Below are positions 7,252-15,549 of a DNA stretch of 64,000 nt, piece by piece. Every line of letters begins with the position of its first letter. Position 1 is the first letter of the stretch. The translations under genes and the position numbers were made by a program. Source of the DNA: Chloroflexota bacterium (GTDB lineage: Bacteria > Chloroflexota > Anaerolineae > UBA4142); NCBI GenBank assembly GCA_016219275.1, contig JACRBM010000045.1, positions 43,722 through 107,721 on the forward strand, given 5' to 3'. The notes under the pieces were generated by a model that was not told the origin of the DNA, made no database searches, and saw only the letters and a program-made list of their open reading frames with translations.

Positions 7252-10200
7252 ATGGATTCACTCATTCCCGATTTGGCGCTGGCGATCCAAGCCGCGACGC
7301 CGTTCATCCTTCAGAAACTCGTCGAGAAAGGTCTGATCGAACCGGCGGTCAAACCGTTGGCGAACAAGGTTCAAGCGCGCGCGACCAAAGGCGAGAAGGA
7401 TGCGGCGCTTGAGCAAGCCATTCTCGCGGCAATCAAGGACGTTGCCCCGCGCAAAAGTGATTCGCAGGCGGTCGCGTACGCGCGCAAGATTCGCCTTCAC
7501 GAAATCGTCGAACCTGGCAACGAAGCATTGCGCGATGAGATGATGCGTTTGGCGTTCCTCGCCACAACGAAAAGCCAGCGTCTTGTCCCGTTGAAACTGC
7601 TCGATGTTTTGCGCCTCAACCACGACCAGCGTCCGGCACTGGCAAGTTTCCTCTTTCATTTGCATCAGCGACTGAACGCGCTCCCCGACTATCAGCCGTT
7701 GCTTCAAGCCGCGCGTGACCAAGCCGTGATCAAAGAACTCAAAGCAATGGCGCGCGACCTGTCCGAACTAGTCGGCACAGTCGAAGAAACACGTAAAGGT
7801 AAGGCGGTCCGCGTGCGTGTCATCGCGGACGATTGGAGTGCCGAGCCGTACCTGCGCTACCTCGCGAATGTGTGCAACGTATTGCCTTTGCGCGTAATTG
7901 ATCCACAGTACGCTTCACCGACCGGCGAGACCGCAACGTTGAGCGATGTCTATACCAATCTCGAAGTCACGACGACGGTTCAAGTCAAAGTGGACAAACG
8001 CAAATCTCGCGAAGAGCAACCACAACTTATGGAACGCGAAAAGACGCGCCGCATGACTGTGCTCGAAGCCGTGTCTGATTCGAAATCGCGCCGACTTGTT
8101 TTGCTCGGCGATCCCGGCGGCGGCAAATCCACGTTCGTCAACTATCTCGCGTTCTGTCTTGCCAAGCATCAACTCGAACCGAAAGACAAATGGTTGGAGC
8201 GGTTGCCCGCGTGGACAGTTGGCGCGCTGGTGCCAGTTCGCATCATCTTGCGCGACTGGGTCGCGTGGGTAAGCGCGAACAATTCGCATCAGCCGAACGC
8301 GCAATTGCTTTGGGATTTCCTCAAACACGATCTCACGAGCCATGGCTTGGAGAACGAATTCGCGCCGCTCAAAAAACATCTGCTCGAACACGGCGGGCTA
8401 GTTTTACTCGATGGCTTGGATGAAGTGCCGGATGCGAATGCGCGCCGTGCTCTGCTCAAATCGGTGATCGAAGATTTCGAGCGCGGGTGCGGCAAGTGTC
8501 GCATCGTCGTGACGTGCCGACCGTACGCGTACGAAAAACGTGAGTGGAAATTGCCTGGCTTTGCCGAGCAAACCATCGCGCCGTTCAGTGATGAACAAAT
8601 TGAAAATTTCATTCGCGGTTGGTACCACGCGGTTGTCCAGGTGTCGGGGATGAATGCCGCGCTCGCGGAATCGAAAGCGAACGCCTTGATCGCAGCGTGC
8701 GGTCTGCCACACCTCGCCGAACTCGCGCCGCGTCCTCTGCTCCTTACGTTGATGGCGACCCTGCACACCTCGCGCGGTAAATTGCCGGATGATCGCGCCG
8801 AACTGTACGAGGATTGCGTACGGCTCTTGCTCGATTTTTGGCAACAGAACAAACGCGTGCAGATAGATGGGCAAACCGAATCCGAACAAGGGATTCTCGA
8901 CGCGCTCAGCATTTCACGCGACCGCTTGGAACAAGTATTGAATCAGATCGCGTTTACCGCGCACACGCGCCAGGGCAAGAGCGCGAATCGCCAAAACGTC
9001 ACGGCGGATATAAGCGGAGAGGAATTACGCAAGGTGCTTGTGCCGGCGTTCGGCGACGATTGGAACAAGGCGCAGACCGCGATTCACTATGTCCGCACGC
9101 GCGCGGGCTTGCTCATTGAACGCGAGCCGGACGTGTTCGCGTTTCCGCATCGCACGTTCCAAGAATTCCTGACCGCGCGGTTCGTCGTCAACTCGGAAGA
9201 TTTTCCCCAGAACCTTGCCGAGTGGGTTTGTAATGACCGCGCATGGTGGCGTGAAGTGTTCTTGCTGGCGGCAGGGCACGCGCGTCCGCGCGCGTTTGGC
9301 AATGCGGTTGCGCTCATCAACACACTGTGCGACAAGCCGTATCACCCTGGCGACAAGATGGAGGACACGGACGCGTATGCCGCCGCGCTTGCCGCGCAAG
9401 CCGCCGCCGACATTCACTTGAAAGAACGCGCGACGAGTCCGGGACGTTACCAAGATACACTCCGCAAATTGCAGACCTGGCTCGTTGGCACGCTCCGCGT
9501 CGCGCAAGGTGCACTGCCGCTCGTTGAACGCGCCAATGCCGGACGTATCCTGAGCGCGCTCGGCGATCCGCGCCCGGATGTGAATTGTGCGATTCCAGCG
9601 ATGGTAGATGTGCCAGCCGGCGAGTTTGTGATGGGAAGCGATACAAGTAATCAAGAGGACGAAAAGCCCCAGCATCGCGTAACACTGAACGCGTACCGCA
9701 TCGGCAAATATCCGGTGACGAACGCGCAGTACCGCCGCTTTGTGGATGATAAGGGATACACAAAATTTCATCGCGATTGCTGGACGGATGCGGGATGGAG
9801 TTGGCGCGAAAAGGAGAACATTGAGAAACCACCCTATCTCGATCATCCCGAATTTGGTTTGGACAATCATCCGGTCGTCGGTGTTTCTTGGTACGAAGCA
9901 CTCGCGTATTGCAACTGGCTCACCAAGACCAACCCAGGTCGCAAGTTTCGCTTGCCGACCGAAGCCGAATGGGAACGCGCCGCGCGACACACCGACGGGC
10001 GCGAGTACTCTTGGGAAGGCGAGTTCGATCCTGAAAAAGCGAATACCAGTGAAAGTAAAATCGGACGCACGACTGCAGTCGGTTCGTTCCCGCTAGGCGC
10101 GAGTACATGCGGTGCGCTCGATATGTCTGGGAATGTGTGGGAGTGGTGTAGTACGCGGTGGGGCAAAGGATACGAAAACCCGGAATTCAAATATCCTTAT

Positions 10201-10386
10201 CAATCAGATGATGGACGTGAGAATTTACAAAGCACTGACATCCGTATCCTTCGTGGCGGGTCTTGGGTCATCCATCTAGTTTTCGCGCGTTGTGCGTACC
10301 GCGTCAGCAACAATCCTCATAGCCGTAACCTCAATATCGGGTTTCGCGTTGCCGAGTCTTTCCCAGGGCTTGGTTCTGCTTCCTGA
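7252..10386 (+). CDS. NACHT NTPase with C-terminal FGE/C-type-lectin domain (DGR target 1)
   Basis: A 1044-residue NLR-like protein. The N-terminal 280 residues are of unrecognised type. The NTPase follows, with Walker A GDPGGGKST at about 286-294 and Walker B GGLVLLDGLDEVPD. After a helical region, an FGE-sulfatase fold starts near residue 786 (VPAGEFVMGS, YPVTNAQYRRF, RLPTEAEWERAAR, GNVWEWC). The last 46 residues (RGGSW to GFRVAESFPGLGSAS) are the variable repeat of the DGR encoded directly downstream. At the FGE active-site region the catalytic Cys pair is replaced by DGR-variable residues, so I read the domain as a binding surface, not an enzyme. The ATG at 7252 has GAGGAG 8 nt upstream. 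The likely role is ligand recognition by the lectin-like domain driving NTPase oligomerisation; the effector is unknown, and the divergent CHAT protease is a candidate. Confidence 0.9.
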   Translation: MDSLIPDLALAIQAATPFILQKLVEKGLIEPAVKPLANKVQARATKGEKDAALEQAILAAIKDVAPRKSDSQAVAYARKIRLHEIVEPGNEALRDEMMRLAFLATTKSQRLVPLKLLDVLRLNHDQRPALASFLFHLHQRLNALPDYQPLLQAARDQAVIKELKAMARDLSELVGTVEETRKGKAVRVRVIADDWSAEPYLRYLANVCNVLPLRVIDPQYASPTGETATLSDVYTNLEVTTTVQVKVDKRKSREEQPQLMEREKTRRMTVLEAVSDSKSRRLVLLGDPGGGKSTFVNYLAFCLAKHQLEPKDKWLERLPAWTVGALVPVRIILRDWVAWVSANNSHQPNAQLLWDFLKHDLTSHGLENEFAPLKKHLLEHGGLVLLDGLDEVPDANARRALLKSVIEDFERGCGKCRIVVTCRPYAYEKREWKLPGFAEQTIAPFSDEQIENFIRGWYHAVVQVSGMNAALAESKANALIAACGLPHLAELAPRPLLLTLMATLHTSRGKLPDDRAELYEDCVRLLLDFWQQNKRVQIDGQTESEQGILDALSISRDRLEQVLNQIAFTAHTRQGKSANRQNVTADISGEELRKVLVPAFGDDWNKAQTAIHYVRTRAGLLIEREPDVFAFPHRTFQEFLTARFVVNSEDFPQNLAEWVCNDRAWWREVFLLAAGHARPRAFGNAVALINTLCDKPYHPGDKMEDTDAYAAALAAQAAADIHLKERATSPGRYQDTLRKLQTWLVGTLRVAQGALPLVERANAGRILSALGDPRPDVNCAIPAMVDVPAGEFVMGSDTSNQEDEKPQHRVTLNAYRIGKYPVTNAQYRRFVDDKGYTKFHRDCWTDAGWSWREKENIEKPPYLDHPEFGLDNHPVVGVSWYEALAYCNWLTKTNPGRKFRLPTEAEWERAARHTDGREYSWEGEFDPEKANTSESKIGRTTAVGSFPLGASTCGALDMSGNVWEWCSTRWGKGYENPEFKYPYQSDDGRENLQSTDIRILRGGSWVIHLVFARCAYRVSNNPHSRNLNIGFRVAESFPGLGSAS
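10249..10363 (+). repeat. DGR variable repeat 1 (VR1)
   Basis: A 115-bp ungapped match to the template repeat at 12272-12386. Of 18 differences, 16 lie at positions where the TR has adenine; the exceptions are one C to A and one G to T, the latter in the 3' border shared with VR2. It encodes the C-terminal RGGSW...GFRVAESF stretch of the first NACHT-FGE protein. Variable codons correspond to AAC/AAT/GAT codons of the TR. Confidence 0.95.
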
Positions 10387-10428
10387 ATTCTGAGTTCTGA
10401 TTTCTGTCCCCTGTTTTTCTTGGGGGGT

Positions 10429-10453
10429 CTGGGGGGCGGTTTTTGCCCCCCAG
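10429..10453 (+). promoter_or_regulatory. VR1-associated hairpin
   Basis: A 9-bp perfect GC stem (CTGGGGGGC / GCCCCCCAG) with a 7-nt loop begins 65 bp after VR1. The same hairpin with the same flanks follows VR2 at 15502-15526 but is absent after the TR. In characterised DGRs a hairpin or cruciform downstream of VR promotes target recognition during retrohoming, which fits here. It could additionally terminate transcription. The rest of 10387-10622 is AT-rich short repeats and a REP-like palindrome. Confidence 0.75.
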
Positions 10454-15459: not shown

Positions 15460-15501
15460 TTTCTGATTTCTGATTTCTGTCCCCTGTTTTTCTTGGGGGG
15501 T

Positions 15502-15526
15502 CTGGGGGGCGGTTTTTGCCCCCCAG
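15502..15526 (+). promoter_or_regulatory. VR2-associated hairpin
   Basis: Identical 9-bp stem and 7-nt loop to 10429-10453, again 65 bp after its VR. The whole 3' flank (about 100 bp from the VR end, including the FPGLGSAS codons) is nearly identical at both targets. This indicates that the flank moves or is conserved as a unit with the VR. Confidence 0.75.
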
Positions 15527-15549
15527 CGAAAAATTTTTTGGGGGGTCTC

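Follow-up and report, generated by a model that had tools for sequence, protein, structure and literature searches.

In the window, which is the whole analysed stretch of 64,000 nucleotides from a Chloroflexota bacterium, most differences between one template repeat (TR) and the 3' ends of four receptor-like genes fall on adenines of the TR. Mutagenic retrohoming from this template therefore likely alters the predicted ligand pocket in all four, a reading to which we give a probability of roughly 0.8. Its four likely recipients are two genes in cis and two in trans. Judged from sequence, the unit is a real diversity-generating retroelement (DGR), as the original prediction had claimed: a reverse transcriptase (RT), the accessory protein Avd, a TR and adenine-biased variable repeats (VRs) are all found. 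It spans positions 7252-15526, all features lying on the forward strand, and every part that had been named is present in the order proposed (target 1, RT, Avd, TR, target 2). The span first given, 9600..15540, starts too late, since target 1 has 1044 aa and the unit begins upstream, at 7252. Target 1 (7252..10386; an alternative GTG start at 7243 is possible) consists of a mainly helical N-terminus of about 250 aa, a NACHT NTPase and a C-terminal FGE/lectin domain that ends in VR1 (10252..10366). The RT follows at 10623..11690 (355 aa; RVT_1, 7.5e-19). An SQ motif is the mark of DGR-type RTs, and the enzyme combines it with an intact catalytic YxDD; the two segments, GLPIGNLTSQ and YVDD, are invariant across the four DGR RTs of the genome, which holds three further DGRs besides that of the window. 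Relatives of the RT come mostly from Anaerolineae/Chloroflexota. Avd (11866..12207, with a TTG start) matches NCBIfam NF033474 DivGenRetAVD (E 8.8e-26; 90.2 bits against a cut-off of 80) and Pfam bAvd (3.4e-21). The TR lies at 12275..12389 and target 2 (943 aa) at 12628..15459, the latter comprising an N-terminal hydrophobic helix, NACHT, HEAT repeats and a C-terminal FGE/lectin domain with VR2 at 15325..15439. No Rfam family reached its gathering threshold in the window.

Comparison of the first 104 nt with the TR places 12 of the 13 mismatches of VR1 and 15 of the 17 of VR2 at TR adenines (hypergeometric p 1.9e-7 and 7.9e-9, respectively); over all 115 nt the counts are 13/16 and 16/20. The adenines are replaced by G, T and C, and three 3' positions common to all four VRs read G, T and C where the TR has A, G and G, a difference that may or may not correspond to that between an IMH of the VR and the IMH* of the TR. 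Pairs of TR and VR across the wider set were taken from an automatic finder, four of whose targets were set aside later. Among homologs of the two targets, hypervariation is restricted, as far as aligned sequences indicate, to 16 codons, which are 8-9% identical as against 86-87% for the rest of the VR. For target 1 (15 of 17 aligned homologs, P0002 and P0017 being left out because their VR hardly aligned) the identities are 0.58 in the head, 0.66 in the FGE domain, 0.86 at constant and 0.09 at variable VR positions; the corresponding values for target 2 are 0.57, 0.63, 0.87 and 0.08 (14/14 homologs). Ordinary divergence of FGE paralogs, with no DGR activity, could draw on the motif common to FGE C-termini throughout the family, but it is scarcely credible, being already contradicted by the uneven distribution of mismatches over TR bases, by the adenine bias in four VRs and by the coexistence of both levels of identity within the same 32 residues. 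Some homologs of target 1 have nearly the same VR (P0008-P0010, and P0012 with P0013), so that diversification would not be constant.

The original description of one DGR serving two sensors is likely an undercount, because two VRs on a different contig match the TR as well, in genes whose heads were assigned by Pfam. One belongs to a TIR-FGE gene (C58d; 13 of 17 mismatches at TR adenines, p 3.7e-6), the other to a TatA-DUF4062-FGE gene that is interrupted by an in-frame stop (C58b; 13 of 16, p 1.0e-6), both over the first 104 nt. Mismatches to the TR outside adenines number 4 and 3 in these trans VRs over that length, as against 1 and 2 in VR1 and VR2, and therefore suggest that the former derive from an older template or from a different one. 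Should the template have been a different one, now lost or unassembled, the window DGR would serve its cis targets only. This excess of non-adenine mismatches, the state of the assembly (97.9% complete, in 107 contigs) and the hairpin stems of the trans VRs, unlike those behind VR1 and VR2, lend it some weight; we nevertheless consider it doubtful, given that a DNA search of the own genome with VR1 plus its tail returned no other TR-like copy, and that five of the six non-adenine mismatch sites have A as the commonest base in other TRs, compared with 2 of 63 other sites (p 1.1e-5; 38 other TRs compared, nine of 54 misfitting the motif and six being of other length). Such a pattern is expected if an older state of the same TR wrote the VRs and adenines were lost afterwards. 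Judged by the commonest bases of other TRs, some five adenines thus seem to have disappeared from the TR after certain VRs had been copied from it; one such site is present in each of VR1 and VR2, and the VR2 mismatch at position 83 is unexplained by adenine loss. Loss of template adenines is apparently new, a literature search on it having found no report. Orthologous DGRs of two relatives (G002 and G016) gave no clear trans VR: the four matches in G002 all lie on the contig of the RT, as do four of the six in G016, whose two weaker matches elsewhere comprise TCAGT-type repeats only (C69) and the end of another FGE gene (C93), where the query had no good fit on the one strand computed and the constant stretch of the TR was not seen by eye on the reverse strand. 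Trans fan-out as a general rule for this DGR is accordingly unsupported in these two relatives.

The template whose adenines look eroded might also be that of a relic, a DGR that no longer works and whose VRs are frozen. Damage to the TR in both syntenic relatives and the sharing of VRs by some homologs point the same way. Against this, both RT and Avd have open reading frames and conserved motifs, the TR of the window is uninterrupted, and a close RT is kept in 27 of the 99 genomes searched (the own genome included). We regard a relic as unlikely, and the DGR is presumably active at present.

Pfam finds NACHT and FGE-sulfatase domains in both targets, in agreement with the NACHT-FGE architecture claimed earlier, and the NACHT module is NLR-like. 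In target 2 the matches are FGE (2.9e-60), HEAT_2 (4.4e-10) and NACHT (6e-9), and its structure model has a pLDDT of 87.4. Fold comparison likens the FGE fold to the T. denticola variable protein and the NACHT part to NLRC4. Neither N-terminus matches Pfam, and that of target 1 received no name from fold searches either, the fold list barely covering this part. The two N-termini had been said to differ, one with a membrane anchor, and a membrane helix is indeed predicted in target 2; the contrast between a soluble and a membrane twin is nevertheless less sharp than described, with hydropathy values of 1.24 for target 1 and 1.54 for target 2, some homologs of target 1 reaching 1.85 and the target 2 family ranging over 1.54-2.83 (14 listed). 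PADLOC assigned 0 families to either NACHT target. The variable residues fall in the C-terminal FGE/lectin fold, where a variable face had been foreseen, and in an alignment with human FGE they appear to coincide with its cysteine segment YMCHRSYC, so that the former enzyme groove would turn into a variable binding site. In the mechanism that we propose, the RT-Avd complex would copy TR RNA with errors at adenines, and the cDNA would enter any gene with a matching repeat and, probably, a hairpin tail, the new residues landing at the position of that segment. The targets would act as sensors in the manner of NLR-like anti-phage proteins, with signalling through NACHT or TIR set off by ligand binding, and fusion of the VR-plus-tail block to different heads by recombination would allow one template to supply several receptors. 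An active system would mean that a bacterium refreshes the sensing ends of several immune-like receptors that differ in output from one small template, a logic close to the somatic diversification of receptors in animals. If the loss of adenines from the template is confirmed, it would provide a relative clock of the last rewriting of each receptor.

The same G-tract hairpin sequence follows VR1 (10422..10453; G-tract 10422-10427, arms 10429-10437 and 10445-10453) and VR2 (15495..15526; G-tract 15495-15500, arms 15502-15510 and 15518-15526), with perfect arms of 9 bp (10 pairs in the fold) and a loop of 7 nt. The one behind VR1 folds as ssDNA with -12.2 kcal/mol (z -3.0; 0/200 shuffles equally stable), and the stretch behind the window TR also folds stably, without a G-rich arm (z -2.75; 3/200 shuffles). 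A hairpin with a G-rich 5' arm occurs in 25 of 51 VR tails, 0 of 43 TR tails and 1 of 1020 shuffles, the VR count drawing on 51 of the 63 targets (of the others, four were removed by hand because the frame or the gene was wrong, and the remainder had no anchor or were too short). The other 26 tails have no hairpin at the threshold used; those of L051, L078 and L081 match without one, and the tails of the syntenic locus L045 have a short stem only, by eye. Within the own genome the hairpin is present in 9/9 DGR targets (eight perfect stems; C58b has one mismatch, by eye), and a hairpin with a G-rich 5' arm in 0/6 other FGE genes and 0/4 TRs; a long hairpin of opposite polarity occurs at one of the FGE genes that are not DGR targets. 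Tails are 0.77-0.99 identical within a locus as against a mean of 0.57 between loci (L079 and one of three L081 targets left out). An alignment of targets (A2) contains 44 of the 63, leaving aside those with open ends, doubtful ones and those from the own genome. The TTCTGATTTCTG repeats between stop codon and hairpin were dropped as part of the signal because similar runs occur on unrelated contigs.

A role of this hairpin in homing has to be weighed against that of a transcription terminator with no such role. The hairpins of the own genome sit behind the stop codon, and TTTT occurs within 14 nt downstream in 11/25, as a terminator would have it; on the other hand TTTT lies in the first 6 nt in just 2/25, GGGG is found within 14 nt upstream in 24/25, and none of the six other FGE genes in the own genome has such a hairpin. 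Moreover, in 2.5 Mb scanned on both strands, 33 of the 39 hairpins of this kind next to FGE ends had a G-tract in front of them, compared with 16 of 81 elsewhere (p 1.2e-11; the discovery set is included, and certain palindromes are scored once per strand). A terminator alone is therefore improbable in our estimation, and a role of the hairpin in homing is what these features suggest. The recipient hairpin would then be a testable rule for the genes that a cellular DGR rewrites and a search signature for more targets. Two details are apparently new, namely a double G-tract hairpin that roughly half of the VR tails carry and that is absent from every TR tail examined, and 3' tails that are alike within a locus while the heads differ; a literature search for DGRs with a triplex or G-tract found no report, a weak result since unrelated papers swamped it. 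As a tentative extension, which we hold to be possible rather than probable, the VR and its 3' double G-tract hairpin may form a portable recipient cassette carried by NACHT, membrane-NACHT, TIR and TatA-DUF4062 heads, kept alike per locus by recombination and read by one RT-Avd-template set, so as to yield a head-swapped NLR/TIR-type repertoire; homing direction might be set by a bistable hairpin or a G-G-C foldback formed from its two G-tracts and one C-tract, and adenine loss over time would freeze parts of the pocket.

Altogether, this is a known kind of system with some new details. The sections of Guo et al. 2011 (PMC3240598) considered here describe a target-site hairpin of the BPP-1 DGR with a GC-rich stem (7-10 bp) and a 4-nt GRNA loop, 4-34 bp downstream of the VR. 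The present hairpins share the GC-rich stem downstream of the VR but differ in the loop (7 nt in the window; 3 nt in 18 of the 25 hairpins, TGT in seven, GRNA in 0/25), in the spacing of about 62 nt and in the additional upstream G-tract. Three-nucleotide loops, of the type GRA, are described for the archaeal DUSEL4 DGR (PMC4372165, in part), where the hairpin lies inside the target gene, whereas those of the own genome lie behind the stop codon with a G-rich 5' arm; the part of PMC12875486 considered reports deletion of the inverted repeat in an E. coli DGR reconstitution. VMAP-ternary conflict systems (Kaur et al. 2020, PMC7159879, in part) likewise pair a DGR-diversified FGE/FGS lectin fold with a predicted conflict system, yet are based on vWA-MoxR and not on NACHT and TIR. 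Antiviral STAND and bacterial NACHT sensors, as treated in the portion of Dore et al. 2024 drawn on here, also join a NACHT module to a C-terminal putative sensor, which in the present proteins is hypervariable and which no PADLOC model matches.

In target architecture the unit is close to the STAND-lectin DGR conflict systems that multicellular bacteria carry, those of clade 5D (Dore et al. 2024, PMC10907252). According to the portion considered, these commonly have two targets with a central STAND/NACHT NTPase and a C-terminal lectin/FGE domain, as well as some TIR heads, several DGRs per genome, trans targets and head swapping; two targets, a single lectin domain and a central STAND NTPase are shared with the present unit. 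Here, in contrast, one template fits NACHT, membrane NACHT-HEAT, TIR and TatA-DUF4062 heads, the template appears to have lost adenines, and G-tract hairpins mark the recipients, the word hairpin being absent from the main text of that paper. The adjoining CHAT protease, next to which the twin arrangement had been noted, was rejected as a system part because its linkage is not conserved: it is a neighbour found in 0 of 10 loci searched, L044-L047 with the closest RTs included, the upstream reach being limited by contig ends. As for the twin arrangement, which had been thought unusual, it is syntenic in two relatives and recurrent elsewhere, and paired STAND-lectin targets are already described in the part of Dore et al. 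2024 considered.

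Analysis of the window reveals all the parts of a diversity-generating retroelement (DGR), in the order target 1 (NACHT-FGE, 7252–10386, + strand), RT (10623–11690, RVT_1, with the motifs GLPIGNLTSQ and YVDD), Avd (11866–12207, above the NCBIfam cut-off for DivGenRetAVD), template repeat (TR, 12275–12389) and target 2 (NACHT-HEAT-FGE, 12628–15459, + strand). The TR aligns without gaps to the variable repeats of both targets, VR1 (10252–10366, 16 mismatches) and VR2 (15325–15439, 20 mismatches). Within the first 104 nt, where the TR has 28 adenines, 12 of 13 mismatches in VR1 (p = 1.9e-7) and 15 of 17 in VR2 (p = 7.9e-9) fall at TR adenines. 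These matches and the adenine bias bear out the original prediction of a complete DGR in this order; the interval it gave (9600–15540) was too short, as target 1 starts at 7252 and lies mostly outside. A tRNA-Leu (gag) gene immediately downstream of target 2 (15594–15678, − strand) is a possible landing site for the DGR cassette.

A search of the same genome with VR1 plus its tail yielded two extra VRs on contig C58, at the 3' ends of a TIR-FGE gene (C58d, L036:8210–8324) and of a TatA-DUF4062-FGE gene (C58b, L035:8757–8871); compared with the window TR, 13 of 17 (p = 3.7e-6) and 13 of 16 (p = 1.0e-6) mismatches, respectively, are at adenines. Three other DGRs also have FGE targets, namely TIR-FGE (contig C67), DUF4062-NACHT-FGE (C68) and three NACHT-FGE (C96), giving four templates and nine FGE targets in this genome. 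Of the predicted single DGR with two targets, both targets in the window stand; the count of two recipients is likely too low, and the genome has more than one element. The TatA-DUF4062-FGE target (L035:7332–8546, onward to about 8871) contains an in-frame TAA and one hairpin-stem mismatch, and looks decayed or else affected by an assembly error. A further FGE gene on contig C34 (L040:3148–4176), with a VR-like C-terminus (YYNQFS...YIYLPDSGSFLV) and no hairpin, may be an orphan target.

Behind VR1 (10422–10453) and VR2 (15495–15526) lies a GGGGGG-T-hairpin with perfect 9-bp arms, whose single-stranded DNA fold (−12.2 kcal/mol, z −3.0) was equalled by 0 of 200 shuffles; the region downstream of the TR, taken as control, forms a stable fold too (z −2.75, 3/200). 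All nine DGR targets of the genome carry a G-rich hairpin preceded by a G-tract, the stem sequence varying between DGRs with pairing kept; eight of the stems pair perfectly, and that of C58b, read by eye because the automated scan had picked another hairpin there, contains a single mismatch. The hairpin with a G-rich 5' arm occurs in none of six non-DGR FGE genes and none of four TRs of this genome; one of these genes shows a long hairpin with the polarity reversed, and hairpins of other kinds are present at three TRs. Across loci it was detected in 25/51 VR tails, 0/43 TR tails and 1/1020 shuffled tails, so that about half of the VR tails lack it at the threshold applied. GGGG lies within 14 nt upstream in 24 of these 25 (the exception, L116, is a different stem type), and on the downstream side TTTT is found within 6 nt of 2 hairpins and within 14 nt of 11. 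In a scan of 2.5 Mb on both strands, a G-tract precedes 33 of 39 such hairpins beside FGE ends versus 16 of 81 others (p = 1.2e-11); the discovery set forms part of this sequence, and some palindromes enter the count once per strand. G-tract hairpins also occur upstream of RTs without a recognised FGE motif: that at L089:7996 sits behind its VR, and those at L061:74, L074:8605, L111:4306 and L117:70 may belong to VR tails that were truncated or overlooked. BPP-1 DGRs are described as requiring a hairpin downstream of the VR (Guo 2011, PMC3240598; see also PMC12875486); its GRNA loop and 4–34 bp spacing both differ from the window hairpin, which is thus similar but not identical.

Targets that share a locus have 0.77–0.99 identity over the 120 nt following the VR (10 pairs from 8 loci) and 0.59–0.67 over the 650 nt preceding it; between loci, tails average 0.57 (maximum 0.69, 126 pairs). 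Because the window's TR lacks the tail, retrohoming from it does not account for the likeness there; the probable cause is recombination between targets. Matching tails without a hairpin occur at L051, L078 and L081. Six non-adenine TR sites in the first 96 nt mismatch some VR. At five of them 38 other TRs most often have adenine, compared with 2 of the 63 other non-adenine sites (p = 1.1e-5). The competing explanation is a second template that has been lost; the simplest reading is that the window TR lost adenines after some VRs had been written, in which case the VRs would be a record of older template states.

For target 1, with 15 of the 17 aligned homologs counted, VR identity is 0.86 at the constant residues and 0.09 at the 16 adenine codons, next to 0.58 for the head and 0.66 for the part of FGE preceding the VR; target 2 homologs (14/14) give 0.87 and 0.08 within the VR, and 0.57 and 0.63 for the head and FGE. 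Near-identical VRs, shared among P0008–P0010 and between P0012 and P0013 (target 1 homologs), are a point against constant diversification. The N-terminus of another target 1 homolog, P0007 (66% identity over 81%), contains TELRVFVASPSDV and appears DUF4062-like by eye, possibly another head swap.

Dore 2024 (PMC10907252) already describes paired STAND-lectin targets, targets with TIR heads, trans targets and the swapping of heads, so the finding as first stated is of a known kind. A literature search covering the main text of open-access papers found no report of a G-tract hairpin as a putative recipient mark, within-locus tail homogenisation, a mixed NACHT/TIR target set on one template or template erosion of the kind proposed here; these four features are apparently new.

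Relatives of the RT are common, numbering at least 535 stretches in the genome collection, the best 80 of these being mostly Anaerolineae/Chloroflexota by title, and a close RT is present in 27 of 99 genomes searched (own genome counted). Of 90 sources, many of them on cut contigs, 54 gave TR-VR pairs with an adenine bias in an automatic finder: 50 of these 80 loci together with L037, L038, L039 and the window. Five of the 50 loci have two or more VRs. All 44 complete targets from other genomes match FGE, 34 NACHT, four TIR_2, three DUF4062 and two KAP. The T1-RT-Avd-T2 cassette is syntenic in two relatives' loci, L044 (RT 85%, target 1 head 42%, target 2 head 72%) and L045 (78%, 40% and 48%). 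Both receptors are open in each, the L044 TR (about 11455–11520) having lost its 5' half and that of L045 (from 11801) being interrupted by roughly 70 nt of palindromic, MITE-like sequence. The CHAT protease singled out as a notable neighbour, a TPR-CHAT gene (3958–7128, − strand; CHAT 1.5e-61) divergent from target 1 and about 120 bp away, was found in none of the ten relatives' loci searched, where contig ends limited the upstream reach; within these stretches its linkage is not retained. One relative, G016, has a larger DGR repertoire, with 7 RT and 24 FGE matches.
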